A stretch of 30,574 nucleotides of DNA from positions 1-30,574 of IMG/VR virus record IMGVR_UViG_3300021185_001049. One strand, written 5' to 3'. Position 1 is the stretch's first letter; every line of letters starts with the position of its first letter. This DNA is from a virus. The translations under genes and the position numbers were made by a program. Positions 2,205 through 26,517 of the stretch are shown piece after piece. Under the pieces are notes generated by a model. It was not told the DNA's origin. It was given only the letters and a program-made list of their open reading frames with translations, and did no database searches.

Positions 2205-2244
2205 AAAAATATTTCTTGACAACTTACTTAAACTTCGGTATAAT
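2203..2244 (+). promoter_or_regulatory. Consensus sigma-70 promoter P1 with A/T-rich upstream element
   Basis: TTGACA at 2216-2221 and TATAAT at 2239-2244 are separated by exactly 17 bp, a perfect match to the bacterial sigma-70 consensus. An A/T-rich tract resembling an UP element (A7-TATTTC) sits directly upstream and overlaps the helicase stop codon. The expected start of transcription is around 2251. It would drive the single-strand binding protein and the recombination and dNTP genes downstream. The same upstream sequence recurs at the leftward promoter near 25064-25107. Confidence 0.85.
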
Positions 2245-10466: not shown

Positions 10467-13400
10467 TTATAACCTGCCTAGTCTAACTCTAAGAGTACTT
10501 CCTTGATATACTTCTAACCTATCATCTATAATTTTAAGTCTAGAAGTGCTAGCGCTAGTGCTAGATTGTAAAGAAAAGCTTTTACATTTAAGATCTATAT
10601 TATCACCATCAAAGCGAAGGTATTCATCTGATCCACCAATATCCAGTTTATATTTTCCGCCTGTATGCCCCAAGAAAATTCCGTCTGTCACATCTCCATA
10701 GTTGGTTTTATTTGTAGTATGTAGCTGACCTCCTGAAAGAAGCTCAAACTTTCCAGATGTAGTAAGGTTAGAATATATTTGGCTGGTAGTAAGAACAGCT
10801 GCATCTAGTGTTCCTTCTACTATTACACTACCTTCAAATCTCTCTACTACAATGCTGGACCATTCACTTGCTGTTACACTATCTTCATTTGATACAAACC
10901 TATCAGCTCCTTGATATATTCTAGTAGTAGCACTGGTATCATCATAAATAGTTAGTTTATCCCCCGCTACAAGTGTACTAGTTACATTTGTATCAAAAAG
11001 TCTTTTTACCGCGTCCTTGGCGGCTTGGTTAGTTAAAGTACCTTTCCACGAACCAAAATCCGACGACCCAAAAGGACTTGCACCTGTATACTCAAAACTC
11101 AAAGGTGTCCCGACCCTTCTCCCTGTTGACTTAGTTAAAGTGAAAGATAGTATAGCAAGAGTTTGATTTGACTCATTACTGATAACTGGAACAGTAAAAG
11201 TTGAACTTGTATCATTTGCAGTATCTAGTATATTTGAAGTGCCCTGAATAAGAATTTTACCTTGTGCAGTAGCATACGGACTAGATTTTCCATCTGTATT
11301 AGTAAAAGATCCATATCTAAAAGTATTACTAAGATATGGTGTAGTGCCATCAAAACCATATTGTGTACCATCAACAGTTACATCTACCTTACTTTCAAAG
11401 TTATTAGAGCTAACTATTCCTGTTGAAGGGGCATTAAAAATATGATTATTATTTGTAGGAACAACAGTTATAATTTGTCCAGGTTTAAGTGCTGGTATCA
11501 GTAAGTGATCTTCTGCGATTATAGTAGTACCATCTTTAACTTGAACCCTATAAACCTCTGGCACGTCAGAAAAAGTTACGGGAAGTGCAGAAGAGTGAGT
11601 AGTTCCTGTTACGTTACCCAGAGTATCTGTAACAACTCCTGTACGTTTCGTAAAGAGACATTTTGTAGTACTAGGTGAATGATCTATACCAGTTGTTTCA
11701 GCTGTTAATGTTAAGGTGCCTGACGCGGGGAATGTTCTAACACCTGTTTCACTGAACTCATACTTTAGTGTATTTGCAACGAGTTTTACGCTTTGCACTC
11801 CAGCAAGCCCTTGAATACTTTGCTTAATAATTCTAGTAAAGGCTACTCCATCCGAGCTTTTACCTTCTATAGTAAATGTAACATCCGCTACATCGGAAGA
11901 AATACTTATATGATCCTTAACTCTAGCAAATGTTCCTTGGTCACTAGGATTGGTGCCGGTACCTACAGTAAGATTAGTACCCACCATGGAAGTAACACCC
12001 CAATAGCCTACTTGGCTGGCGGTAGGGCTTGGATCGTAATTTAAGGTAGAAGTACCTTCATATACGTATATATCCGTACCGGAACCAGAAAAGTCACGAG
12101 TGCCATCTTCTCTAAGAGGTATACCATGATTCTCATTTGTTAAGTCTACTCTTATTGAATCATTTCCTGGAGCTCCATCACTACCATCCTGAAAAGCTAT
12201 CTGAGGGTAGGACCATGTAATGGTGGCGGCAGTAGCACTTGGATTTCCTTCCACTGCGTAACCAGTTGATACATATACCGGAGTGCTTCCCGAAGGAACT
12301 CCATCACTCCAGTTTGTAGGAGGTGTTAAACTCTGTGTATTAAAGTTAAATGTTCCTCCTGTAGGAGTACTTAATGCAGAAGAGCTTCTTCTATAGACAG
12401 CAAGCTCTACTACTGCTGCACCTTGCGGACCTTCTGTTCCCTCTACCCGTACAACATCCTGCCAAGTATAATTAGTATCACTACCAGCTTTAAGACCTAT
12501 AGAAGACCATAAAACGTCAGTACCCGTTGTTCCCGATACTGTTGTAGACCAACCTGAAGGTGTAGTAGCACTCGCTGCGGGTGTAGAAGGGGCTGTAGCA
12601 CTTCTCTGAAAAATAATATCTACAGAATCTCCAGGATCTCCGTCTCCTAAAAGCCTTGCTGCAGTAAAGTTTATAGTTTGTTGCTTTTCGATGTAAACTA
12701 AGGGATCATCAGTAGGCTCTCTCATTTTTACAACAACGCTTTGAGGCATTTTATCAAAACCTGATGAACGAGTAACACCTGTAGGGGCATTGTAAGTATA
12801 GGATGCAGTAACTGAAAAAGCTTGAGAAACTACAGTACCGCTCGCATCTACAGTTTCAAATTGAAACTCTGGTGTATTTGTGTTATTTATACCTATACAA
12901 GTTATGTCACAACTTCCTCCATACCCAGAAGCAATAGCGTTACCAAGAGTAGTATAAATAAACTCTGTCGGAGCAGACAAAGATATATTAATGTCTCTAA
13001 CCTTAAAATTAGTTATACTCTCTGCGGTACCATCTATGCCGCCTGTATTATTATTAGGAAAGAATGCGGAATATACTGGTTTTTTCAATACTCCTGCATT
13101 ATTTAAAACACTTTTTATTATTTTATATCGTACCCAGTAGTACCTAGTAACAGAACCAGTTCCTTCTAGCACTAAGTCGGTGTAGGTATTTACACCAGAA
13201 ACTGTAGCTATCTTAGGAGCAGTAATAGTTAGGTTTGCACCTACAGACCACTTAGCTGGCATATTAATATCAATATAGGGCTGACCACTAATTGCCACTC
13301 CGACATTTGTTACTTTTATTTCTGCTTCTTCTGTTCGCACTTGGCCTGTACCTGCACGAGTAGTACCAACAGCAGGAACAATAATAGAACCTATTTCATA

Positions 13401-16400
13401 CTCTATATTGATTGTTCCTGCTACAGCATTCCAATCCGTATCTCCTAGTACTGATATCTGGTAAGTTACTCCGTCTTGAGCGAGTGCAACTGAGAAGGTT
13501 TGAACAGCAGTTATATCTCCCGAAACTACCATGCCTTCTGTAAGTGTGGCGATATCATCTTTGAGAGCTTGATATCCCGCTGTGGAACCCGACGGGGGGA
13601 ATATAATTGTATTTGAAAGAATGTTTGCAGCTGTTGCTGTAAAGTCGTAGCTTCTTTTGTTATATGTATTACTAAAAATTTCTACGCTGTGAGTATCTTC
13701 TCTAAAAGAAGGAGAGTTTTGCCAGTTTAATTTTATAGCAGTATCAATACTTTGAGTAGCTGTTAAACTGTGAGGAGATCTAGGAATTGCTGATCCTGTA
13801 GCACCTGCACCTGTAGAAGCTACGACGATAGGCTTGCTCTCATCTGGGGCAGGCACAAAGTATGCGCTATCTGAGTGCTCTTCTGCAGTTACAGATACAT
13901 TACCGTTGCTTAAAAAGTTAAGATTAGTAATTCTCCATAGTTTTTCTGTCCACCCAAACCTATTATAGCTTAGTGCAAATACCTCTCCTGCCATAAGTAA
14001 TGCAGCAGAAGGTCTAGCGGTAAACTGTACCTCTAAACCGTTTCTAGATTCATCCAAAAATTGCTTTATATTTACTCTAGCATTATAATAGTTAGTTATG
14101 GACGGGGTTGAAAAACTACCTTTTTTAGGTACATTATTATCTTGGTTTAAGTATTCAGAATTAAAGAAAGATACACTTCTAGTTTCGAACCCGTTTTGAG
14201 GATCTATTATACTTGCAGAGACACTGTTAAATGTTTTTTTACTACCTTTGTCAGATAGTTTTATAGACCCTATAATATCATCATTGCTGAGTTTTTCATA
14301 AACACTTAGTGCAGGGGATGCAGATTTTACCTTAAGTTGATACTTACCATTACTATAGCGCAATATCCCATTAAATTGACGTAACATATTATTTACGTTA
14401 TCAAAAACTGTACCAGTAGTAGAAATAACTTGATTTAATTGATGTCGTGTAACATTACGTTGATCAGGACTGTCCCATCCTACCATTCTCCAATATTTTA
14501 TATTATCGGAATCATATAAGCTATATCCCGAGCCTGTAAAACCTTGCTGAGAATCTATGTTTTTAACAATAGGGTTTCCATCTGCAGAAAGTCCTGCTTC
14601 TCCGCTATCTACTGTAAGGTTTGGAGCTACGTGATCAACAGCCTCAATAGAAATCCCGGCAGTGCCGCTAATAGCTGTAAAATTGGCGCCGATAAAACCA
14701 GCACCATTTAGTCGTACTAAAGTAGTACCAGTAAGTGCGTCGGATAGCCAGACTAGTGCACCATCAAAATACTGTTTATAGTCTTGTGCTTTTTGTACGA
14801 TCTTACCCATACAATCGGTAAAAGTAACAACATAATAATCCGCCCCTACGGGTACAATTTTAGATACTTCACCCCTCCAAAAAGTACGACCTGCATATCT
14901 TCTATGGTATTCTTTGCCCATTACCGGAAGATTTCCTTCATTTTTTATAACCATAGTAACATCAGACCGAGTATCACAAGCTACTGCAGCAGATTTAAAT
15001 GTTTCTAGATCTATATCTTCTTGTAAACTCAGACCTTTACCATATCTTATACTAGTAAGATAGTCTAATAGTTGCATTGCTGGATTTAAGGAAATCCTCT
15101 TATCTTTAGGAGTTCGTATTTGATATTTATCCCCTGTAGAAGGGTGATATCCTGCATCCCAAGCAATGTCAACAATTGCTACTGGATTAGTTGCATCTGG
15201 AATCCAGTCTATAATTGTTCTTTCCTGGGTATAAGGTATATTATTAGAATTAAATCTAGATAGGATAATTGTAGATCCTTCCAATACTGTTCCAGTTCCG
15301 GAAGGAAATCTAATTGCATTTTTTAAAAATATTTTTTCAAATACCGGAGTGCCGTCAGAATCTGCAGGTAGTATAGGATCTGGTATCCCTCCTACGTTTG
15401 TTAGTGTATTTGTGTTAGAGTTAAAATTTTGGAAAAGTAAATTTGATTTACTTAGATAGCTTAAATCGCCAGTGGCATATACATTACCACCCACTATATT
15501 TGAAGCTAGCACACCAAAATAACTTTTAGGCCTTTGATAAGTACCTATAGTTTCTGTGCTGTCCGTGGCAGAGATAGCATTGTTAAAACCGTTTGCCAAG
15601 TTTTGTAAAGTAATATCTACACCCTCAGAGCCTAGAGCAGACGATGCAATTTCAGCCTCTAGTGCTCCAGGAATTGTACCTGTATAGAGCAAAGAGTTAG
15701 ACTTTTGCATAGTCCAAGTATAACTACCTTGAGTCATTATTACTTCTGGACCTCCTACAGGGTTAGGCTCTTCTTTCCACCTAAATCTACACTCAGTAGT
15801 ATTGTCTTCATTTTTAAAAAACCATCGATCAATAATTGTAGTAGTATATGGTGTAATACCATCCCCAGATATAGTTACAGTATCGCCTATATTAAATTCG
15901 AAGGCATCAATACTGAAAGAGCTTTCTTGGCGAAAGCTACCATCATAGTTATGGCAGTCTATAGACTTCCCTCTAACTACGAAGTCTAATGAAGGTAGGT
16001 TGGTTTCTCCTTCTGATAATAAATATTCTGCTACTACATAAGCGGTGTCAAGTAATCTATGGTTGGGGGTCCAGTATTGATGAGGGTTTCCCGCATAAAA
16101 ATCGTTTTGTACTTTGAATAATTGTTTATCCGCCTTTTCTACTAATAAATTATTTGCTCTTTGGTTAGGTTTTCCCTGGTGGAATATTAAAGTAAAATCG
16201 ATTGGATCTCTAAATGCATATGCTTGCTCATGGCTTATACCTATACTTTGGCCGACAGTATCAACATCAGAAGCAACATCTCCTGCATCCATAATTCTAG
16301 TTTCTTCGGTATAGTAAGGAGTATTTTCAATAGGTCCCAAGTTTTTAGCAGATCTAAATATACTACCACCCTGAGCTGAATTATACCCGTTCCAGTTGTA

Positions 16401-17909
16401 GGTTTTATGGGCATAAATACCTACACCTTGAGAAGCATCAGTACCTAATAAAACGTCTCCTCTATCTTGTCTACCTTTACATAAAACATCTATAGAGTTA
16501 TTTTCGTTCTGCTCTGACCTAGCTAAAGAATCAGCACCGTCTAAACATAGTGTGGTTTTGTCGTCAATCGATATATCAAGTAAACTACCTATAGTACCTT
16601 CTGCTAAGGCATATGCAACATACACTCTATCAGGTTGATCTTTAAAATTATCAAAAAATATTGGTATGCTATCAATTTTTTGAACGCCATAAACTACAGG
16701 TAGAGCTTTAGATTGCATGTTTATATTTAATTCTACGTCTGTAGGTATTTCTACTTCATACTCAATCTGTGTATACTTTTTACTCAACCCTAAAGCTTTC
16801 TTTTTCTTCTTTAGTCTAGTTCTTGTTTCGGTTCTATTATAAGTAGCTATTAAATTTAAAGAACTTTCTGAATGCTCAAACCCGTAATCTCCTTCGTACT
16901 CTTTCCTAAGAATCATATTTTCGTCGGAAAGTCCATCAATGCCTACAGCTCTATGATCTGCATCTGAAGTTAATCTATTTTGTACTCTTACAAAATCTCC
17001 CCAGTGGCTAGCCAATGTCCAAGACATTTCACTAGAGTTTCCAGGATTTTCGCTTAAAGCAGCATTTGAAATTATACCTTTAAATATTAAAACAGCACCT
17101 TTTTGATCATATACTCCATTTATAAAAGCGGGAAAACCTCCTATAATAGAGTTTGTATTAGGATCTATAAACACTCGGTAAATAACTACTTCTCTGTTTA
17201 TATAGTTAGTATATGACGTAGATCCGTTTCCTATAACTAAAGTAGATATTTCTTCTGAAATAAGGCTCATATTATAACTAGCAGTTTCAGCCGTCCACGA
17301 ACTAGAGCCTTTTGTTTGGGTAACCATAATTGCAGGTCTGGGAGTTCCATAAGTTGTAGAATCTATAAAGAATCTATTTATAATAAAAGTAATATTATTA
17401 TTACTTCCAGAGCCCGCAGACAGTGTTACAGTATCTCCCTCCTTAAAGCCTATTTCTGATATATCAGTGTTTAATACAATAGTAGTATTATCTGCTAAAA
17501 ATCTCATATCTTTTTCAAAATGAACAAGACCCAGACTACTGCTATCCAGCTTTATTGTAAGGCTAGAGGCTTTTGCTTCGATTCCTTCATTTAAAGTTCC
17601 TACACTAAGTAGTTTATTTGCGTGATACGTTTGTAAACCGTTAGGGATAGCTCCTGAAAGGGAATTAGGGTTTTCAAAAATATCTTTTTCACGTTGAAAC
17701 TCTTGTAAACGGCTAAATGATCCATCATTAAACTCTATATTAAAAGGAGCGTCCGTTATATAAGAATACGTAACAGCTTCTTTACTGGCTACTCCGTTAT
17801 AATTTGGGTTAAGGGTAGGTTTTTCGAATTTTACAAGATGTGCTACTAAATACTCGTCGTTATTAAGTAAAGCATTTGCTAAATCTGGGTGATAAGATCT
17901 ATATGTCAT
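10467..17909 (-). CDS. Giant gpJ-like tail-tip hub and receptor-binding protein
   Basis: 2480 residues, about twice lambda gpJ. Residues 1-~350 resemble the separate minor tail proteins that precede gpJ in other phages. Residues ~365-1350 look like the hub, with a Lys-rich stretch near 366, a conserved NPAMQLLDYLTSIRYGKG near 940-960, and a late hub segment ending near 1360. A fibronectin-III-like domain follows at ~1375-1425. A small module around 1480-1522 (TYQISVLGDTDWNAV) recurs in the neighbouring Dit-like protein. Two tandem ~70-80 residue repeats lie at ~1762-1829 and ~1832-1914, each ending in a short collagen-like Gly-x-y run. The last ~120 residues (VEGTLDAAVLTTSQIYSNL onwards) resemble gpJ C-terminal domains. 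It probably closes the tail tube, forms the central fibre and contacts the host receptor. Start is coupled to the previous gene (TAATG). Confidence 0.88.
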   Translation of the reverse strand: MTYRSYHPDLANALLNNDEYLVAHLVKFEKPTLNPNYNGVASKEAVTYSYITDAPFNIEFNDGSFSRLQEFQREKDIFENPNSLSGAIPNGLQTYHANKLLSVGTLNEGIEAKASSLTIKLDSSSLGLVHFEKDMRFLADNTTIVLNTDISEIGFKEGDTVTLSAGSGSNNNITFIINRFFIDSTTYGTPRPAIMVTQTKGSSSWTAETASYNMSLISEEISTLVIGNGSTSYTNYINREVVIYRVFIDPNTNSIIGGFPAFINGVYDQKGAVLIFKGIISNAALSENPGNSSEMSWTLASHWGDFVRVQNRLTSDADHRAVGIDGLSDENMILRKEYEGDYGFEHSESSLNLIATYNRTETRTRLKKKKKALGLSKKYTQIEYEVEIPTDVELNINMQSKALPVVYGVQKIDSIPIFFDNFKDQPDRVYVAYALAEGTIGSLLDISIDDKTTLCLDGADSLARSEQNENNSIDVLCKGRQDRGDVLLGTDASQGVGIYAHKTYNWNGYNSAQGGSIFRSAKNLGPIENTPYYTEETRIMDAGDVASDVDTVGQSIGISHEQAYAFRDPIDFTLIFHQGKPNQRANNLLVEKADKQLFKVQNDFYAGNPHQYWTPNHRLLDTAYVVAEYLLSEGETNLPSLDFVVRGKSIDCHNYDGSFRQESSFSIDAFEFNIGDTVTISGDGITPYTTTIIDRWFFKNEDNTTECRFRWKEEPNPVGGPEVIMTQGSYTWTMQKSNSLLYTGTIPGALEAEIASSALGSEGVDITLQNLANGFNNAISATDSTETIGTYQRPKSYFGVLASNIVGGNVYATGDLSYLSKSNLLFQNFNSNTNTLTNVGGIPDPILPADSDGTPVFEKIFLKNAIRFPSGTGTVLEGSTIILSRFNSNNIPYTQERTIIDWIPDATNPVAIVDIAWDAGYHPSTGDKYQIRTPKDKRISLNPAMQLLDYLTSIRYGKGLSLQEDIDLETFKSAAVACDTRSDVTMVIKNEGNLPVMGKEYHRRYAGRTFWRGEVSKIVPVGADYYVVTFTDCMGKIVQKAQDYKQYFDGALVWLSDALTGTTLVRLNGAGFIGANFTAISGTAGISIEAVDHVAPNLTVDSGEAGLSADGNPIVKNIDSQQGFTGSGYSLYDSDNIKYWRMVGWDSPDQRNVTRHQLNQVISTTGTVFDNVNNMLRQFNGILRYSNGKYQLKVKSASPALSVYEKLSNDDIIGSIKLSDKGSKKTFNSVSASIIDPQNGFETRSVSFFNSEYLNQDNNVPKKGSFSTPSITNYYNARVNIKQFLDESRNGLEVQFTARPSAALLMAGEVFALSYNRFGWTEKLWRITNLNFLSNGNVSVTAEEHSDSAYFVPAPDESKPIVVASTGAGATGSAIPRSPHSLTATQSIDTAIKLNWQNSPSFREDTHSVEIFSNTYNKRSYDFTATAANILSNTIIFPPSGSTAGYQALKDDIATLTEGMVVSGDITAVQTFSVALAQDGVTYQISVLGDTDWNAVAGTINIEYEIGSIIVPAVGTTRAGTGQVRTEEAEIKVTNVGVAISGQPYIDINMPAKWSVGANLTITAPKIATVSGVNTYTDLVLEGTGSVTRYYWVRYKIIKSVLNNAGVLKKPVYSAFFPNNNTGGIDGTAESITNFKVRDINISLSAPTEFIYTTLGNAIASGYGGSCDITCIGINNTNTPEFQFETVDASGTVVSQAFSVTASYTYNAPTGVTRSSGFDKMPQSVVVKMREPTDDPLVYIEKQQTINFTAARLLGDGDPGDSVDIIFQRSATAPSTPAASATTPSGWSTTVSGTTGTDVLWSSIGLKAGSDTNYTWQDVVRVEGTEGPQGAAVVELAVYRRSSSALSTPTGGTFNFNTQSLTPPTNWSDGVPSGSTPVYVSTGYAVEGNPSATAATITWSYPQIAFQDGSDGAPGNDSIRVDLTNENHGIPLREDGTRDFSGSGTDIYVYEGTSTLNYDPSPTASQVGYWGVTSMVGTNLTVGTGTNPSDQGTFARVKDHISISSDVADVTFTIEGKSSDGVAFTRIIKQSIQGLAGVQSVKLVANTLKYEFSETGVRTFPASGTLTLTAETTGIDHSPSTTKCLFTKRTGVVTDTLGNVTGTTHSSALPVTFSDVPEVYRVQVKDGTTIIAEDHLLIPALKPGQIITVVPTNNNHIFNAPSTGIVSSNNFESKVDVTVDGTQYGFDGTTPYLSNTFRYGSFTNTDGKSSPYATAQGKILIQGTSNILDTANDTSSTFTVPVISNESNQTLAILSFTLTKSTGRRVGTPLSFEYTGASPFGSSDFGSWKGTLTNQAAKDAVKRLFDTNVTSTLVAGDKLTIYDDTSATTRIYQGADRFVSNEDSVTASEWSSIVVERFEGSVIVEGTLDAAVLTTSQIYSNLTTSGKFELLSGGQLHTTNKTNYGDVTDGIFLGHTGGKYKLDIGGSDEYLRFDGDNIDLKCKSFSLQSSTSASTSRLKIIDDRLEVYQGSTLRVRLGRL

Positions 17910-18829
17910 TATTTTTCAGCCTCTTCTAGCTTTAGTGAAAAAGAATATAAATTATCTACATTTGTACGATATTCTTGCACGTCGGAAGATAAAAATACTC
18001 GGGGTTTAGGGTCTAAAAAGTTTGGATAAGCATTTACATAGGTGTTTCTTCTAAGAGAGGGAGTAAAGTGTACTCTGACTTCGTTAGTCCCTAAAGTAAT
18101 AGCGCCAGTTTGTTGATTTGTAGATGTCTCTACTCTATTTACTCTATATAGTTTTGTATGTAAAGGTTCTAGACTGTCCTCTAACACAAAAAAGTCGCCC
18201 GGCTCCGGAGTCTTGTTTGTACTAACATTATAAGTAGCTCCAGTAAATATAAAAGAATCTGTTCCAGCAGGTACATAAGTAGCTTGAATTGTTCCGTCTC
18301 CCGCTGCGGGGACTGAAGTAGCAGTAAAAATATCATTTGTATTAGGAGAAACAGGCGCGCCTATAGAAGACCAGTTAGTCGCTCCTGTAGTACTAATAAC
18401 TTTATATTCCTGTCCAGGCCTTAAATCTGTAACATTAATTGTAGGTGTTTGAACTTTAAGAAAAGTATTAGAAAAAATAGATAAAGCAGAACCAAATACG
18501 AGATTTCTTGTAAATTTAGACGAAGGCATGGAAAAATAAAAAGGAGAAAGTCTTCCCTTTTTATGTAGTATAAAGCTTTGAACAGGCTCAAAATCTTCCC
18601 TTGTCATATCGTTATAAGATAAATCAAAATCCCAAGAATGTTTGCCTACCCCTGCGGTAATGAGTCTGCCAGAGTTTGTCCTTGACGACATATTCTCTGA
18701 TTTTGACTTAATTTTTATAGACGTTATACCTCCTATAGTACTATTGGTAGTAGAAACGGCTGCACCGGCATTGTCGACAGGGTTTTGAGGATCTGGTAAA
18801 ATATTTGAAAAATCTGTAAAAGTAGTCAT
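17909..18829 (-). CDS. Dit-like / minor tail-tip protein
   Basis: 306 residues, the only gene between the tape measure and the gpJ-like hub, overlapping both by one base (TAATG at each end). The N-terminal part (GRLITAGVGKHSWDFDLSY, then MTREDFEPVQSFILHKKGR at about 75-95) resembles the beta-rich distal tail or gpM/gpL-type proteins that start tail-tube assembly on the tip. An inserted module at ~135-185 (GQEYKVISTTGATNWSSIG, then a Gly/Thr-rich end) is of a kind often found as a mobile insertion in phage virion proteins and has a relative in the gpJ-like protein. The C-terminal part returns to beta-strand-like sequence. Placement strongly supports a tail-tip role; the exact family is inferred. 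Confidence 0.75.
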   Translation of the reverse strand: MTTFTDFSNILPDPQNPVDNAGAAVSTTNSTIGGITSIKIKSKSENMSSRTNSGRLITAGVGKHSWDFDLSYNDMTREDFEPVQSFILHKKGRLSPFYFSMPSSKFTRNLVFGSALSIFSNTFLKVQTPTINVTDLRPGQEYKVISTTGATNWSSIGAPVSPNTNDIFTATSVPAAGDGTIQATYVPAGTDSFIFTGATYNVSTNKTPEPGDFFVLEDSLEPLHTKLYRVNRVETSTNQQTGAITLGTNEVRVHFTPSLRRNTYVNAYPNFLDPKPRVFLSSDVQEYRTNVDNLYSFSLKLEEAEK

Positions 18830-21800
18830 TATAGTTGTGTCTCCGATACTCCTTCTAAGAAGTACTCTCCTTGTTCATTAGCGGCCTCTCTAATCATTCT
18901 TATTAGATTTCCTCGTTGATTTATTAGTAGCTCCTCTACACCTGCTGAATCTACAGCATTTATTGTAAAAGTAACGTTTGTATTACTTGCTGAAGTAGTT
19001 TCATCGGCAGGAAGTATAGTTCCTGGTACGCTAGGTATAAAGGTTTCAGGCCCTTGTTCTCCTACCATAAAGCCTGTACCGCCCCCTGAAGCTCTGTTTC
19101 TATAACCCGAGAAAGCAGGAGTAAAGTTTTGCATACCTCCTATACCAGAAGCTCCTCTCATATAAGATAACTCTCCTGACTGACTTCCTCCTTTAGCTAG
19201 ATCTACAGTATTTTTTCTTTCGCCCATTCCTATTTTAGAAACTCCTCCAGCATTTATAGAAGAACCTCCCCCATCATAGCTCGTTTTGGCAATAGTAGCA
19301 AGTTGAGCAGCACCTAATGCACCTACTACGGCCATTTGAGCTGCCGCTAGTGTAGGACCTACGTAAGGATCTTTAATGCCTGACCATAAACCCATAATTG
19401 CCGATGCAGTATTTGCAACAACTTGTGCCATTTGCATTTTCTTATTTTGCTCAAACTCTTTTCTCTTCATTTGTTCTTTTTTCTTCTCAAGAGCTTTGAG
19501 TTTAGAAACACTTCCCGCTGATTGGCCGTCTCGTTTTTGCTCTGCAGCAATCTCTTTATCAATGGCTGCAATTTTTGCGGTGTGGTGAGCAGCCGTTATC
19601 TGAGATATACTGTTTATAGCTGCTGCTGCCATTTCTACGCCTGCTTGTGCTTTAGAGCCTCCCGCTTCAATACTCTCAAAGGCAGATGTAAATGCTTCAC
19701 CCATATTTAAAGCGCCTTCCATTACGGAACTCATTAAAGCACCTTCAGGGCCTAAAGAAGCTAATTGTTCCATCATTGGACCGGCCGTTTCTGAAAGCTG
19801 GGAAAATACTTGAGACCCTGTAAGGGCCGGCATTTCGGCATTCGGATCTTTTTGTTTTGCAGCCTGATGTGCTATTTCTCTTTTTTCGGAAAAATCTCCT
19901 GCGGAATCTACTGCGAACCTTGCTGCTGCGTAGCCTTCGCCTCCCAAGCGTTTGTTTCTATCAGACTGGGCTTTGGTCATTTTTTCTACCATATCTGCTT
20001 GTTTAGCTAGTATTTCAAGAACTGCTATTTCTGCATCGTATTTTTCCTGGGTACCTAATTTTTCTAGATTTACTCTATCTTTTGCTAGCTTTAACTCAGT
20101 ATCTAATAGGTTTGATTCTTTGCCTAAACCTGTAATCGCGGACATATTTGCTGACGTGGCATTAAGAGTAGCTTGATCTTTAGCTAACTTATTCATTCCG
20201 TCTCTATATTTTTCTAAATCGTCTGATAGCGTAATAAATCTAGACTGACCGCCCCCTTCTATGCCGTAAACTTTTAGAAATTCATTTGCTTTCTTATTGG
20301 CTGTATCTTGCCCTTTACCGTTCAATAAAATAGAATTTACTTCTGTTAGTGCCGAATTAACATTAGATATTCTGTCAGCTAATGGTCCAAAATTACTATC
20401 TCCAGAGGATATTAAGGTGTTTGCTTCTGCTATAAGATCATTGAATTTTTCAAAAGATTGTACAGCTGAATTTGTAGAGATAGATAAAGCATTTAAATCT
20501 GTCTGAGCTTTTTTAATATTGCCATCTGTGGAGAACTGTTCCATAATGGCCTGGGCCTTTGTAATAGTATTTGTAAGAAGGGCTTGGGCATCAGCATTCT
20601 CTTCTACAGTTTTTTTGTTTGACTGCAGGGCTGTTTCCATAATCTTGCTTTTTGCTATAAGAGTACTTACTGAAGTCACAAAATTATCTTTTAAGGTTTG
20701 AGATGCTTCAGCTGAAATATTATTAAATCTTTCCACGGCTGCAGTTGCGCCGGCCACTGCGCTACCTCTAGCCCTAATCAAATTAACGTCGTTCGTATCA
20801 GTAGATTTACCTTTGTCTGCTTGAGCCTGTTTTAGTTTAGTAGTTGCCTTTGTTAAACCTTTTATTCTTTCTACTTCTTCTACAATTCCTGCATCTACAA
20901 TCGCTGAATTTACTTCTGTCAGTATACCTGCTAAAGGCTTGGCGGTATTATACCAACGACTACTGGCGCCTGACGCTTTTTTAATTGTTTTAGTGTACAA
21001 TTCAATAACTTCAGTAAACTCTTCAAATCTCTCTGCATTCTTTTTAACTTGTTGCTCTAGTCTACTATCTTCTAAACCAAACATTTTTTCTATAACGGGA
21101 TAAAGCAGAGACACCGCCATTCCTATTAGAGCAATATAAGGCATAATCTTTAAGGTTAGAGCGAACAATAGCTTGGCAGAGGAGGTTAAAGCAAGAAACA
21201 ATCCCTGAGTTACTATTAAAGTGCCGTTCCAAAAACTTTGTCCTGCAGCTGCAGCTAAAGTATTTGTAGCTAAGCCTTTTAAACTTAGTATATGGTGACC
21301 TATGGCGGCAGTTACACCTTCTTCCATTAGTATATTCAAGGAGTTAGAAAGATTTAGTTTATCAGTTGCAAGAGTACCCTGCCAAAGAGCCATGTTTAAG
21401 GCGTTACGCATAGCAGTTACTTTACCAAGAGCAGGATTTGTTTTGTTCATCATATTGATGGACATATTTAAACTTTTTGTCATGGATTTAATTTGTGTAT
21501 CACCAAACTTACCCGCTTTAGCTAATCTGTTAAAAGCGGGAGGCAGGTTTTCCATAGGTTTAATAGCTTTAAGAGAGTTTGCGGCTAACTTTGCTTGTTC
21601 AGTAGAGGCTTCTGCTGAGGCCTTTGCTAAACCTGCTAAGCCTCCAATCATCGTACCTCCAATAGAAGATAAAAACGCAGCGCCTACTCCAAGAAGTGCT
21701 ACCTTTGACTCTGCTAAAAAGTTAATTACAGGTCTTAAGCCTTTTTGTACAAACTCTATAACATCTTTAGTAAGATCACTAAAGGTTGCACTTAATTTAG

Positions 21801-22548
21801 AGTAGGGACTAGCATCTAAAGCGTCTGCTAGCTGATCGTATTTTGCAGTACCATCTGCAATAATTGCATTTGTAAAAGCCATTCTACGCTCAAACATAGT
21901 TAAGCTAGTTACGTTTTTATTTAGGCTATTGGCGTAGTCTTTTGTTGCTTTATCTAACCGTACCATAATACCTAATTCATCTAGAATCTCTGGCTCTAGT
22001 TTGGCAGCACCTCGAGTAAGACGATCCATAGCATCTCCAAGATCTCTACCAAGAGCAAGGGAAGCACCTTTTGCTACTTTTGCTAATCCTTCCATTTGAG
22101 ATTCACTAAAACCTGCAGATATACCTACAGCAGTAGTTCGCATAGCTTGTTCTGTAGAAATAGCATTATCTGTTATCTCTCTGAGCTTGTCAGCTACAAG
22201 AGTTAAGTTTCTGCCTGCTGATCGTCCTGTAAACTCTAAGCCTTCTTGTAATTTAGAAATTGCATCGTTTCTTGAAAGCAAGCCGAAAGCCGCAGACAAC
22301 GCAAAAGCGTTCGCGGCTAGAGTTGCATAGGCGGGAACTAGACCGCCGGAGATACCGGCAGTCATTTTTGAAAATGCTTTAGTACTGTTAGAAGTAGCCT
22401 GTGCTACGCCTTTATTCTTTTTACTATATCGATCCGCGGATTTAGTTGCTTTATCAGTACTTTGTGCAGCTTTTTCTGCATCTTTACCAATAGCTTTTAA
22501 ACTACCGTCTTCCATGACCTTATACGTAACTTGAATTGTATCTGCCAC
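18829..22548 (-). CDS. Tail tape measure protein
   Basis: 1239 residues. It sets tail length and is thought to be ejected through the tail into the host envelope. Evidence is length, position after the chaperone ORFs, and composition. There is an N-terminal beta strand (DTIQVTYKV) followed by a Lys/Ser/Ala helix-rich region. Hydrophobic segments lie at ~70-95, ~280-310 and ~459-490, with long helical or coiled-coil stretches. A late helix (KKMQMAQVVANTASAIMG, from about 1037) follows, then a Gly-rich C-terminal region containing GFMVGEQGPETFIP, typical of many tape measures. At about 0.15 nm per residue the tail would be roughly 185 nm. The start codon is GTG at 22548, two bases after the chaperone stop; starting at the later ATG (22515) would delete the conserved first strand. 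No lysozyme or peptidase domain is evident. Confidence 0.93.
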   Translation of the reverse strand: MADTIQVTYKVMEDGSLKAIGKDAEKAAQSTDKATKSADRYSKKNKGVAQATSNSTKAFSKMTAGISGGLVPAYATLAANAFALSAAFGLLSRNDAISKLQEGLEFTGRSAGRNLTLVADKLREITDNAISTEQAMRTTAVGISAGFSESQMEGLAKVAKGASLALGRDLGDAMDRLTRGAAKLEPEILDELGIMVRLDKATKDYANSLNKNVTSLTMFERRMAFTNAIIADGTAKYDQLADALDASPYSKLSATFSDLTKDVIEFVQKGLRPVINFLAESKVALLGVGAAFLSSIGGTMIGGLAGLAKASAEASTEQAKLAANSLKAIKPMENLPPAFNRLAKAGKFGDTQIKSMTKSLNMSINMMNKTNPALGKVTAMRNALNMALWQGTLATDKLNLSNSLNILMEEGVTAAIGHHILSLKGLATNTLAAAAGQSFWNGTLIVTQGLFLALTSSAKLLFALTLKIMPYIALIGMAVSLLYPVIEKMFGLEDSRLEQQVKKNAERFEEFTEVIELYTKTIKKASGASSRWYNTAKPLAGILTEVNSAIVDAGIVEEVERIKGLTKATTKLKQAQADKGKSTDTNDVNLIRARGSAVAGATAAVERFNNISAEASQTLKDNFVTSVSTLIAKSKIMETALQSNKKTVEENADAQALLTNTITKAQAIMEQFSTDGNIKKAQTDLNALSISTNSAVQSFEKFNDLIAEANTLISSGDSNFGPLADRISNVNSALTEVNSILLNGKGQDTANKKANEFLKVYGIEGGGQSRFITLSDDLEKYRDGMNKLAKDQATLNATSANMSAITGLGKESNLLDTELKLAKDRVNLEKLGTQEKYDAEIAVLEILAKQADMVEKMTKAQSDRNKRLGGEGYAAARFAVDSAGDFSEKREIAHQAAKQKDPNAEMPALTGSQVFSQLSETAGPMMEQLASLGPEGALMSSVMEGALNMGEAFTSAFESIEAGGSKAQAGVEMAAAAINSISQITAAHHTAKIAAIDKEIAAEQKRDGQSAGSVSKLKALEKKKEQMKRKEFEQNKKMQMAQVVANTASAIMGLWSGIKDPYVGPTLAAAQMAVVGALGAAQLATIAKTSYDGGGSSINAGGVSKIGMGERKNTVDLAKGGSQSGELSYMRGASGIGGMQNFTPAFSGYRNRASGGGTGFMVGEQGPETFIPSVPGTILPADETTSASNTNVTFTINAVDSAGVEELLINQRGNLIRMIREAANEQGEYFLEGVSETQL

Positions 22549-22550
22549 TA

Positions 22551-22952
22551 CTATTTTCTCTTTAGCTTCTCCCTATCTCTTTTTAGTCTTTCTTGAGAAT
22601 GTTCGATTGCTCTTGATTCTAAATATGTAAGAATCTCTAAAAATAATTCTGTATCATCTACGTCATATATATCTAAATAGTACGGTAGATTAGTGAAATC
22701 TTTGCCCATATATCCTATATCCGGATATACTCTATCTCCTAACTGGCTAAAAGTTCTCATAGCATCTATTACGAGAGTAGGAAAATCATCTAGATCCAAA
22801 GGTATTTCTTGCTCTACAGGATCTTTACCTAGTTGTTCACACATAGCAAAGTAACGCTGTCGCGTCATTTTACTATCAGACTCCTTCAGATACCTTTGCA
22901 GGTTTTTCAGGAGCTTTTCCTTTTGATCCTGTACGAAAGTTGTCCAAGTCAA
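22551..22952 (-). CDS. Tail assembly chaperone, second ORF (gpT-like), probably frameshift-expressed
   Basis: Charged, helical ORF just upstream of the tape measure. The 133-codon form begins at TTG (22952), deep inside the preceding chaperone gene. The frame is open only back to about 22955, where a TAG closes it. The first ATG is at 22868, eight bases past the end of the first ORF, giving a 105-residue product. GGAG lies 12 bases before that ATG, a long spacing. By analogy with lambda gpG/gpGT, a fraction of ribosomes on the first ORF would shift frame and make a fusion that loads the tape measure. Here the second frame is +1 (equivalently -2) relative to the first. Key features are YFAMCEQLGKDPVEQEIPLDLDDFP and a basic C-terminus RDREKLKRK. 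Confidence 0.8.
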   Translation of the reverse strand: MTWTTFVQDQKEKLLKNLQRYLKESDSKMTRQRYFAMCEQLGKDPVEQEIPLDLDDFPTLVIDAMRTFSQLGDRVYPDIGYMGKDFTNLPYYLDIYDVDDTELFLEILTYLESRAIEHSQERLKRDREKLKRK

Positions 22953-22955
22953 AGA
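22876..22955 (-). other. Candidate programmed +1/-2 frameshift region between tail chaperone ORFs
   Basis: Both frames are open for 80 bases. The -1 frame is closed by several TGA codons here, so the usual lambda-type -1 shift cannot join the ORFs. Two sites allow good re-pairing. AAA-G within TCAAAAGG (22926-22919) would let a lysine tRNA slip +1 to AAG. The run of five A (22907-22903) in GAA-AAA-CCT would let a lysine tRNA slip back two bases onto AAA. An SD-like AAGGAG lies right before the first ORF's final GTC-TGA. I cannot tell which, if any, is used. Confidence 0.5.
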
Positions 22956-23328
22956 CTACCTCATTGAGCCATCCATCAAATTCAGTAGAGGAACTTACAA
23001 GAGTTTCCGCATTTTCAGAGGTATACTCTAATTGTTTTTTAGGGTTTTCGTTAGATACGTCTACTAATAGTAATGTTTCTAAGTGTTCCATAGTTAAACC
23101 CTTCCAGTTTTTTACAACTGCAGAGGTAAACTCTTGGACAAATTTTTCTTCGTTTATGTCTTCTATAGCCTGACGAGTCTTTCTATCAAACTTTGTAGAA
23201 ATACATTTTTTTCTTAAATTAGCTAATTCTTTTCTTGATAGATTTACTACTTCTACGGAAAAACCTTCCAAGCCTGGAAAGTCTACCCATACTGCTTTTG
23301 TGTCTACCATTAAGTTTTTAAGTTGCAT
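22876..23328 (-). CDS. Tail assembly chaperone, first ORF (gpG-like)
   Basis: 150-residue protein between the tail tube genes and the tape measure, the standard position of gpG-type tail assembly chaperones. It starts with a short beta-rich segment (VWVDFPGLEGFSVEVVNLSR), continues with acidic helical sequence (residues ~55-130, including EFDGWLNEVVFDLDNF), and ends in a lysine- and proline-rich tail (KGKAPEKPAKV). The ribosome site AGGAG lies five bases before the ATG. The second chaperone ORF overlaps its end in another frame. Identification rests on position, size and the overlap arrangement, as this family diverges fast. Confidence 0.83.
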   Translation of the reverse strand: MQLKNLMVDTKAVWVDFPGLEGFSVEVVNLSRKELANLRKKCISTKFDRKTRQAIEDINEEKFVQEFTSAVVKNWKGLTMEHLETLLLVDVSNENPKKQLEYTSENAETLVSSSTEFDGWLNEVVFDLDNFRTGSKGKAPEKPAKVSEGV

Positions 23329-23336
23329 TGTTACTC

Positions 23337-25004
23337 CTATATATTAATATATTTAATTGTTGAACTAAGTGGTCTGGAATTATCTGTAAGTCTCCAGTCA
23401 TAATTTTGTGTAAATATTTCATCTGAAGATGATCTATTTGTAAATGAGCATGTTAACATATCAAATTCGAATCCATATATTACTCCCTCTTTCTCTCCTA
23501 CTTTTATCTTTAAAGAGCTATTTATACTAGAAGTATTTTCTAAGTTTGAATTTGTATCGCATGAGTATCTGCCTATAGAACCCGAAAATATTTTTTTATT
23601 TATAATAAAATTTTCAGGATAAACCAGTGCGTCCTGATTTTGTTGTATTGCCATAGCATCATATAAAGTCCTATTCTCTACCCATTTTATATCGTTTTGT
23701 AGCTCTGCTGATATTGAAAATACTTCTGAAGAAATTTCTACACTGTCTAATTCAATAGATATGTCATCTCCTCTTAAATATTTTCTCCCTGATGTCATAG
23801 GCTGGTGGACACCTGGGGAAGTAAAGCTTGTGGCATTTACTAATAGTTTTGATAGCTTAGACGCTTCACCAGATACTGTTAATGTCAGGGGTGTAGATCG
23901 CTCGATCCCATACGTCCCATTAGTAATAACGCATTTATCTAGTTTATAGACAGCTTCTGTAGAAGCTATATACAACGAAAAAACAGTAGAATTTATAAGT
24001 TTATCGTGTACTACTTGTAAATCATTTTCTTTAAATACTGGAATTTTAAATTCAAAATTAGCCGGATTTGCTTTAACTATAGAAGATTTTTCAAAGTAAT
24101 CTTCTGGCCTATTTAAAGTCTTGTTCATACTAGATTTATCAGTACTAGTTTGACTAAAGCTAAAATTTTCGGAAAGCTCTAGCTTATAAGATTCTCCTGT
24201 TGAATGAAGGTTATAAGAGTCCCTTGACTGTGCCTCCGAATGTACGCTGTCATAAAACTTTACCTCTGCTATAGAGCCTTCAAAGTTATTAGTAATATAG
24301 AGACTGTTTGGTGCAATATTTCTTGCCGCTAAACTTAAAGACCCGAGACTAGACCCGTTTTCTACAAACCTCGGCCTACTGCTAGGAGTGCCCAATGTAG
24401 AATTGTTTAAGTGTAGACTTAATAGATTAGTAGGTACTCCGTAATGTGATTTTATGTGTAAATAATTCCATTGACCTGGAGTAACTACATTTTCATATAC
24501 TATCACGTCATCTGACGAATTGTTGGGCGACTCACCTGTTAATTTTAAGTCTAGAGTGGTCTGTCCGACTCTTTGAATTATTTCAACCCCCCACCCAAAT
24601 CCAGAGGCTCCTCTACCTATTAAATATCCAGTGTAGTCTTGTGACTGAGGGGCTACATCGTCTACGTTAAACCATAAACTTATTTCCCAGTTGTTATTGT
24701 TTTCAAAACTTCTTGCATCTTCTCTTGAGAGTAAAGTCATCCCTTTACCCCCGTTTTTAAAAGTCAGTGCACCTAAAAAAGGAGAATCTGTAGATTCTAC
24801 TGTATGGGAATTATTAGATACTGTAGTACCTGGGTTATTACTACTTACTACTCCGGAAACAGAGGTTATTTTATCAACTATTCCGTCCGATAAATTTCTA
24901 AGGCTAAAGTAGTGGTACGGATTTCGGTATTCGTAGTGCTCTAGATAAGACTCGTCTACAACTAAGTATGCTTGCGAGTCTTTTTTTAAGTTATAACTAG
25001 CCAT
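23337..25004 (-). CDS. Tail-tube-like protein with an inserted LamG/concanavalin-like domain
   Basis: 555 residues. Residues 4-20 (KKDSQAYLVVDESY) match the start of the neighbouring tail tube protein (SRDTNVYLIVANKKY). The match resumes at Y273 with YKLELSENFSFSQ versus YTIPVLDGFSFSQ, then at ~350-385 (VYKLDKCVITN versus IYKIKDCVVNE) and ~472-482 (FSGSIGRYSC versus VNGSFTCYL). Between residues ~21 and 272 lies an insertion with LamG/concanavalin-A-like features: NNWEISLWFNVDD near 101, WNYLHIKSH in the middle and FEGSIAEVKFYDS at ~239-251. I infer a second tail-tube-fold protein displaying a carbohydrate-binding-type domain, either as a minor ring or at the distal end of the tube. The ribosome site GGAG lies four bases before the ATG. 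A promoter and a terminator lie just upstream. Confidence 0.75.
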   Translation of the reverse strand: MASYNLKKDSQAYLVVDESYLEHYEYRNPYHYFSLRNLSDGIVDKITSVSGVVSSNNPGTTVSNNSHTVESTDSPFLGALTFKNGGKGMTLLSREDARSFENNNNWEISLWFNVDDVAPQSQDYTGYLIGRGASGFGWGVEIIQRVGQTTLDLKLTGESPNNSSDDVIVYENVVTPGQWNYLHIKSHYGVPTNLLSLHLNNSTLGTPSSRPRFVENGSSLGSLSLAARNIAPNSLYITNNFEGSIAEVKFYDSVHSEAQSRDSYNLHSTGESYKLELSENFSFSQTSTDKSSMNKTLNRPEDYFEKSSIVKANPANFEFKIPVFKENDLQVVHDKLINSTVFSLYIASTEAVYKLDKCVITNGTYGIERSTPLTLTVSGEASKLSKLLVNATSFTSPGVHQPMTSGRKYLRGDDISIELDSVEISSEVFSISAELQNDIKWVENRTLYDAMAIQQNQDALVYPENFIINKKIFSGSIGRYSCDTNSNLENTSSINSSLKIKVGEKEGVIYGFEFDMLTCSFTNRSSSDEIFTQNYDWRLTDNSRPLSSTIKYINI

Positions 25005-25019
25005 AAATCTCCGTACAAT

Positions 25020-25043
25020 AAAAAGGGGTCCGAAAAAGACCCC
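25020..25043 (-). terminator. Rho-independent terminator after the tail tube gene
   Basis: On the leftward strand GGGGTC (25043-25038) pairs with GACCCC (25030-25025) around a seven-base U-rich loop, followed by five U residues (25024-25020). It lies between the tail tube gene stop and the start of the LamG-containing paralogue, so it should reduce downstream tail gene expression relative to the abundant tube protein. It is also only about 14 bases downstream of the expected start of the P2 promoter. Confidence 0.87.
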
Positions 25044-25063
25044 CTTAACTTTTTCTATATCAT

Positions 25064-25107
25064 ATTATAGTCTAAGAGACCATAAATGTCAAGAAATATT
25101 TTTAACT
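25064..25107 (-). promoter_or_regulatory. Consensus sigma-70 promoter P2 with A/T-rich upstream element
   Basis: Read leftward, TTGACA (25092-25087) and TATAAT (25069-25064) are separated by exactly 17 bp, a perfect sigma-70 consensus. Immediately upstream is AAAAATATTTC, overlapping the tail tube gene's TAA stop. The 17-mer AAAAATATTTCTTGACA is identical to that in P1 at about 2205-2221, and both have TATAATAT at the -10. Expected transcription start is near 25057, pointing into the terminator at 25043-25020 and then the LamG-containing tail gene. Confidence 0.85.
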
Positions 25108-26517
25108 ACCTTTATATACAATAGTCATCTCATTGGCTTCTGAAATTGTGCTAGGTAAACTATTAAAGTTAGCTTCTAAAGAAATAACATCTTCAATAGA
25201 ATGTGTAGGTAGCTCCAACTGTGAGTTTGGTAAACTAACTTCCATTCTAGGAGTAGATGTTGAGCCTCCTACATCAAACTGTAGTTGGAAAGAGTTATTA
25301 ATATTATCTGTGTCAACTATTAAATCTTGAAATAGTTGATGACTTTCATTAGCTCCAGAGCTTAAGTAGCAAGTAAAGCTACCGTTTACTGATCTTGTTC
25401 CAGTGACATGTCCGATTGGCTGATTAACTACTCCTAAACTTTCTGGTGTTAGAAATGATATATTATTAGACAATGTTACACTACCACCTGTAAGTGTTAA
25501 GGAGTAAGTTTTGGATCCCGGACCTCCTACTGCGGTAAGTTGTGTTAATCTATTTCTAATAAAGTTGCCTGTACTAGTTCCTTCGGTACCTAGAGTTACG
25601 TCTGTACCTACTGATGGAACACTTGCTACATTTTCTATTAAAGAGCCCATTCCTGACCAGCTAATAGTAGTAATTCCGTCAATATCAAACTCTAAACCTG
25701 CTTCATTAACAACGCAATCTTTAATCTTATAAATCTTAGTACCTGTATTAGAGCTACCTAGTTCAAAATATAAATCACCTGTCGCAAGTTGAGTCTTGTT
25801 AGAGTTACTAAATTCAATTTCGGCTTGAGTAGCGCTTGAGGTGTATCCTTCTACAGTTGCATTACCTGTAGTAATATTTGAACCCGAAAGAGCTATAGTT
25901 ATATCCTGTGAAGGTGCAGCTCCTAATTCGAAAGCTGATTCTATATCTTCTTTAGAAATAAATAGTTTATCACCTGATCCATATCCTGAGCCTCCATAAC
26001 TACCCGTTCCCATAGAGGCTGTAATTGCTCCAGTTGTATCAGAAATACTAATTTGTAATACAACACCTGCACCGTTTCCATCAGTTTCTGCTGCGATAAA
26101 TTGATCACTACCATAACTACCAGCTCCTAATGCTGTCGGGCCAGTTACAGAAAAAACACCTGTAACAACACCAGTAGTACTAACACCTTGTCCAGCATCT
26201 CCTGCCATCATTGTCCATAAAATATCTTCTGGAGCATAATGAGAGTTACTAGCCCTGCCGCCAGATGTAGCACCTGTATTTTTAGAAGGTCGAGCATATG
26301 TTGAAAAACTCCATTCCGCAGGCGCAAAAGAGTCTGTAAATACTTGTCTACCTCTACGGCTGACATTTGATGAGTTGGACATTTCGTTCAGAGTAACTTC
26401 TGAAGTATTTGTTGCTTGAGAGAATGAAAATCCATCTAATACCGGAATAGTGTACTTTTTATTAGCCACTATCAGGTATACGTTGGTATCTCTGCTAAAA
26501 AATAAATTATTTGACAT
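25102..26517 (-). CDS. Major tail tube protein
   Basis: 471 residues, forming the tube around the tape measure by stacking of rings. It starts with SRDTNVYLIVANKKY and continues YTIPVLDGFSFSQ, SEVTLNEM and a segment near 65-80 (FAPAEWSFSTYARPS) typical of siphovirus tube proteins. A Gly/Ser-rich insertion (about residues 95-240) with repeated motifs (GAGSYGSDQF, GGSGYGSGDKLF) follows. The fold then resumes at about 260 (IYKIKDCVVNE), with a C-terminal half that also matches the LamG-containing neighbour. AGGAG lies six bases upstream of the ATG. A hairpin precedes the gene and a terminator follows it, as expected for a highly expressed structural gene. The position between tail terminator and chaperones supports the call. 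Confidence 0.85.
   Translation of the reverse strand: MSNNLFFSRDTNVYLIVANKKYTIPVLDGFSFSQATNTSEVTLNEMSNSSNVSRRGRQVFTDSFAPAEWSFSTYARPSKNTGATSGGRASNSHYAPEDILWTMMAGDAGQGVSTTGVVTGVFSVTGPTALGAGSYGSDQFIAAETDGNGAGVVLQISISDTTGAITASMGTGSYGGSGYGSGDKLFISKEDIESAFELGAAPSQDITIALSGSNITTGNATVEGYTSSATQAEIEFSNSNKTQLATGDLYFELGSSNTGTKIYKIKDCVVNEAGLEFDIDGITTISWSGMGSLIENVASVPSVGTDVTLGTEGTSTGNFIRNRLTQLTAVGGPGSKTYSLTLTGGSVTLSNNISFLTPESLGVVNQPIGHVTGTRSVNGSFTCYLSSGANESHQLFQDLIVDTDNINNSFQLQFDVGGSTSTPRMEVSLPNSQLELPTHSIEDVISLEANFNSLPSTISEANEMTIVYKGS

Follow-up and report, generated by a model that had tools for sequence, protein, structure and literature searches.

In T5-type phages, recognition of the host is attributed to the receptor-binding protein of the central fibre and to the lateral fibres. 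The holder of the lateral fibres in T5, the p132/LtfC collar, surrounds p140, which forms one trimeric ring between the last ring of the tail tube and the distal tail protein, and p140 carries the LtfC collar in DT57C as well. T5 p140 is a protein of 298 aa with a tight turn between its strands beta1 and beta2 and no inserted domain. Its kinship with pb6 in T5 was described previously (PMC10038345), as was that of the TTP and TTMP of DT57C (PMC10713586). Several tail proteins with a tube fold are known to carry additional domains. The evolved Dit proteins of lactococcal 936 phages and others, from phages of Gram-positive bacteria, form a tail-tip Dit ring with an internally inserted BppA-like binding module that is found in some relatives and not in others (PMC6669499). 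Domain2 of the YSD1 major tail protein is a beta-sandwich at the alpha1-beta4 position that braces the ring; the partner of the beta1-beta2 loop is the external Ig domain in lambda gpV, and in the T6SS of V. cholerae it is the sheath (PMC8718954). The Ig-like decorations of T5 pb6, lambda gpV and SPP1 gp17.1* are extra domains added at the C terminus of tube-fold proteins, and contact with surface carbohydrates has been proposed for them.

The stretch of DNA analysed here (the window) is a 30,574-base IMG/VR virus fragment from the late region of a T5-like siphophage. Profile and homologue searches placed the minus-strand genes from 30528 to 10467 in the T5 late order. Upstream of the tube gene, these were the major head protein, the head-tail adaptor (T5 p144), a p143-like tail completion protein and the tail terminator (p142), and from the tube gene on they were the tail tube (pb6), p140, two chaperone ORFs, the tape measure (pb2), the distal tail protein, which is a gene of its own (17909-18829), and a 2480-aa protein that matched both T5 pb3 and PHROG 31, central tail fibre J. 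The tube gene and its neighbour were both intact where the earlier note on this DNA had placed them, and the neighbour follows the tube gene and precedes the tail assembly chaperones, the position expected of a p140 in PF23779, with the chaperone ORFs directly downstream as in T5. A search of a genome collection gave one distant match, to a Halieaceae MAG, which was too little to assign a host. Coordinates of the features are given in Table 1. Several structural proteins share an inserted module of about 55 to 70 aa (Y.I...G.TNW..IGA....F...G.GT), among them the window's distal tail protein (18230-18445, about residues 129-200) and the tubes of relatives L006, L035 and L042-L047.

Table 1. Features of the tail region of the window, and occurrences of the type B insert in other proteins
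Feature	Position	Strand	Basis or remark
p140-type baseplate tube ring protein with inserted ConA/LamG-like domain, 555 aa	23337..25004	-	
p140 core residues 1-19, N terminus and beta strand 1 of first hairpin	24948..25004	-	p140 profile positions 1-19
Type A ConA/LamG-like domain, residues 20-265, in the beta1-beta2 turn	24210..24947	-	Laminin_G_3; ConA-like structural matches
p140 core residues 266-555, rest of double tail-tube domain	23337..24209	-	p140 profile positions 14-301
T5 pb6-type tail tube protein, 471 aa	25102..26517	-	phmmer to T5 pb6 7qg9_F, E 1.6e-33
Gly/Ser-rich tube insert, about residues 109-220, alpha1-beta4, approximate boundaries	25858..26193	-	
sigma70 promoter TTGACA-17-TATAAT (25092-25064), then intrinsic terminator (25046-25022)	25022..25092	-	
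Two overlapping tail assembly chaperone ORFs	22551..23328	-	PHROG 313 and 3914; T5 homologues
Tape measure, distal tail protein and T5 pb3-like hub/central fibre gene; end of tail operon	10467..22548	-	
Type B (L028-type) insert elsewhere	L171 5001-5537; L170 6001-6588		

The earlier note had matched four pairs of sequence blocks by eye and had proposed that the tube protein and its neighbour are paralogues sharing a tail-tube fold. BLASTP of the two window proteins against each other gave nothing significant (E 0.61). Profiles were then compared, one of 69 insert-free p140 homologues and one of 50 insert-free tubes, with the window's own proteins left out of both. The two profiles aligned with a probability of 98.4% (E 9.7e-15, 267 columns), and in the alignment the YVV..FSFSQ, YKL..C and GSI/GSF blocks were paired with their order kept. 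The p140 profile found every one of the 50 tube sequences, with a top score of 39.7 and a median of 24.2 bits, and the best decoy among 2,117 shuffled or reversed sequences reached 10.1 bits. The four block pairs are thus homologous by profile-profile alignment, and the profiles and the AF2/Foldseek cross-matches bear out the proposed paralogy; the pair being blank in BLASTP, the reading by eye outdid the pairwise search. The blocks were not equally spaced in the two proteins, for which a distance of about 118-121 had been given: measured between the first residues of the YKI/YKL and GSF/GSI blocks, it was approximately 115 residues in the tube and 122 in p140. Paralogy of this kind is already published for T5 and DT57C and is now detectable by sequence profiles too. 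Among the relatives, two tandem tube paralogues, the first with several inserts, precede p140 in L006 (4295-9665), L007 (4502-9662), L008 (24-4092) and L009 (4778-9680), and likewise in L084, L119 and L126; L032, L059 and L062 have two p140 genes each.

The 555-aa protein matched PF23779 (Baseplate_Tube_p140) at 59 bits against a cut-off of 27, as well as PHROG 3889 (E 4.5e-14); phmmer against the PDB gave no match. Its AF2 model (pLDDT 83) had T5 p140 (7qg9_G) as the top-ranked Foldseek match (E 1.1e-15, TMt 0.70), followed by pb6 (8e-12), and the protein is accordingly predicted to have a double tail-tube fold closest to that of solved p140. It resembles T5 p140 and DT57C TTMP (PF23779) in gene order, in its double tail-tube domain, in having a tube paralogue and in its top structural match. 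It differs in an insert of about 246 aa within the turn of its first beta-hairpin, where T5 p140 has a short turn and the 297-aa gene of relative L002 has no insert. Residues 266-555 of the core were modelled mostly with pLDDT above 90. The insert itself scored 24.2-25.8 bits against Laminin_G_3 (PF13385), just under the Pfam cut-off of 27.6, and Laminin_G_3 matched all seven of the seven inserts of the same type (type A, below), with a best E of 7.9e-18. In the AF2 model the insert adopted a ConA-like jelly-roll fold, mostly at pLDDT 70-90, and Foldseek matched it to viral ConA-like lectin proteins at E about 8e-9. Many further Foldseek matches to the LamG part were discounted as signs of kinship, being generic jelly-rolls from the binding domains of unrelated proteins at approximately 20 A rmsd. 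Taken together, the profiles, the model and the structural matches uphold the earlier proposal of some 250 extra ConA/LamG-like residues after the first strand (residues ~20-265), and they support a fold of lectin type in the first loop. Residues that might bind sugar or metal were not identified in the LamG-like domain of the window.

The 471-aa protein is assigned to the T5 pb6 type of tube by sequence and by its predicted fold. Its AF2 model (pLDDT 82) matched 8hrg in Foldseek at E 1.4e-29, the solved tubes of T5 and DT57C at E 1e-29 to 1e-28 and T5 p140 at E 1.8e-13, so that the models of both window proteins share the tail-tube fold, with matches to T5 p140 and pb6. The protein ends with its second tube domain and has no C-terminal Ig-like domain (no Pfam match); some T5-like tubes lack one, and it is not required for pb6-type membership. 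An insert was found in the tube also, although not as the earlier note had described it, namely as approximately 150 residues directly after FSFSQ. It comprises about 90-120 residues after helix alpha1, some 75 residues past FSFSQ, with low-pLDDT edges at 109-116 and 216-220. Since it is smaller than first proposed, the tube core is about 360 residues; of the proposed cores of 300-310 residues each, only that of p140, at about 305, stood. The tubes of L001 and L002 lack this insert, and the alpha1-beta4 site is used by 46 of the aligned tube proteins. The window tube shares this site with domain2 of the YSD1 major tail protein; unlike that beta-sandwich, which braces the ring, the window insert is Gly/Ser-rich and less confidently modelled (PMC8718954).

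Inserts at the first hairpin of p140 were present in relatives of the window protein. Among 92 distinct p140 homologues, 15 had an insert at profile positions 14-24, 192-305 aa in length: seven of type A (LamG) and eight of an unnamed type B. A second scan for type A members added none, and searches with the LamG inserts alone were unproductive, as these lack conserved stretches. Type B had no relative in Pfam or the PDB. The two types showed no detectable profile kinship (hhalign probability 1.5%), which leaves a common origin for them unsupported. In other phages, 16 tube proteins had a third, Gly-rich type of insert at the equivalent turn. When 93 p140 cores were placed on a tree, types A and B fell in separate regions, interspersed with insert-free relatives; the insert types need five changes on this tree, and for presence or absence at least four of the five are forced by supported branches. 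In phages of Rhodobacter and Dinoroseobacter, type B also matched internal parts of GTA-like hub proteins, and in a Paracoccus phage it matched a stand-alone protein. As it lies inside these hub-like proteins too, type B moves between tail-tip proteins.

Comparisons of close relatives indicated, at the level of their sequences, that the insert acts as a cassette. The DNA of L009 and L008 was 95.6% identical over 2.3 kb, ending at about codon 30 of p140, and from there to the end of the insert no DNA could be aligned; at the protein level the cores were 85% and the LamG domains 32% identical. The insert nearest to the LamG domain of L008 was that of L004 (47%), yet the L004 core was only 51% alike. 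The reverse was seen for L030 and L043, whose cores were 75% and inserts 91% identical. Between flanks of approximately 85% identity, L028 has 616 bp at the place of 22 bp in L022, and this reads as a clean gain or loss of the insert. The L008 and L009 contigs have separate metagenomes as their sources and each frame is open, which makes an assembly chimera an unlikely cause of their difference. Within the LamG domain of L008 there is a stretch resembling the Y.I...G.TNW module described above. Most pairs showed purifying selection on the insert, at dN/dS about 0.1-0.3; in one pair, L039/L056, the insert dN/dS was 0.68.

The gap between the tube and p140 genes also holds a conserved element. 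In all 66 distinct tube-p140 junctions of at least 60 bp, the best promoter scored at least 10 of 12 (about 3 expected from shuffles), a terminator hairpin was present in 59 (2.3 expected), and the promoter preceded the terminator in 47. The terminator lies 8-21 nt after the promoter and just ahead of p140, and the promoter spacer is partly conserved too. This combination was almost confined to the tube-p140 junction (115 loci), and Rfam gave nothing credible for the element. It is possibly an attenuation or antitermination device: it could lower expression between the tube gene, whose product is needed in many copies, and the tip genes, needed in few, or it could work by antitermination. The window has a second perfect sigma70 promoter at 2216-2244 (+), upstream of the ORF at 2247, making two perfect sites against 0.07 expected.

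The families involved are known; what is new is the insertion and its variation. No paper describing a LamG domain in a p140-type protein was found in the literature searched, and a tube-fold protein with a lectin-type domain in its first loop is, in these sources, a new arrangement, as had been suspected. Ig-like decorations are C-terminal additions rather than insertions into hairpin 1. The nearest functional parallel is the evolved Dit, which likewise is a tail-tip ring protein of tube fold with an internal binding module (here a putative one) present in some relatives and absent from others (PMC6669499). The window protein is not itself an evolved Dit: the ring concerned is the additional p140 ring, the module is LamG-like or unnamed and sits in the beta1-beta2 turn, and the distal tail protein is a separate gene. 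By analogy, the p140-LamG protein may work like an evolved Dit.

A glycan-binding adhesin is probably the best functional reading of the putative lectin domain, and we think it fairly likely that the p140-type tip ring carries swappable lectin-like heads that serve as a putative accessory adhesin for host surface glycans. From the homology, operon position, fold, insertion site and cassette swapping seen in the sequences and models, we infer an arrangement in which three p140 copies would form a single ring, as in T5, with the last tube ring on one side and the distal tail protein on the other. The insert should be external, because the beta1-beta2 loop touches the Ig domain in lambda and the sheath in the T6SS; the hairpin turn would point outward, and three heads would stick out around the tail tip. 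The earlier note had allowed for a sugar-binding module on the tail or at one end of the tube; given the homology to T5 p140, which forms one trimeric ring by the distal tail protein, the end of the tube is likely and a place along the tail is not. The heads would bind host surface glycans weakly and reversibly, and recombination would exchange them, tracking variation of the host surface and so affecting host range, while the core ring and the DNA conduit would remain constant.

A ConA-like fold can be purely structural. The inserted domain might instead brace the p140 ring, the collar or the fibre bases with no host binding, which we consider unlikely. Such a role is known for YSD1 domain2, which lies against the outer sheet of its neighbour (PMC8718954), the p140 ring bears the LtfC collar in T5 and DT57C, and LtfC genes, which the Pfam LtfC model alone missed, lie approximately 13-15 kb downstream of p140 in G004, G006, G008 and G013, all four of which carry a LamG or type B insert. 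Conversely, one would expect a part that bears load to coevolve with the parts next to it, and near-identical phages have a wholly different insert or none. It is improbable that the domain rides along as a neutral passenger in an exposed loop that tolerates it: most relatives do without it, but it recurs at one site, its frames are open throughout and most pairs show purifying selection. Substitution of the domain for the LtfC collar and lateral fibres is very improbable and was rejected as a general rule, for although LtfC was detected neither in the window's tail operon, which ends at 10467, nor elsewhere in its record, that record is a fragment whose genome may hold it elsewhere, and in at least four relatives the LtfC gene coexists with LamG or type B inserts.

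Returning to swappable heads on the tip ring, gain, loss and exchange of domains at the first loop probably help these phages to grip different bacterial surfaces. We give even chances to the broader proposal that the beta1-beta2 hairpin of T5-type ring proteins, both tube and p140, is a general docking site at which recombination adds, removes and exchanges surface-binding modules of unrelated kinds. The tube wall itself would then hold a host-range hotspot apart from the fibres and receptor-binding proteins. The close pairs L008/L009 and L028/L022 are natural experiments on the role of the module, and a loop of the tail wall is already used in nature to carry whole domains. If the adhesin reading is true, T5-type phages would have, in the swappable module of the tube ring, a third point of adhesion that has been overlooked.
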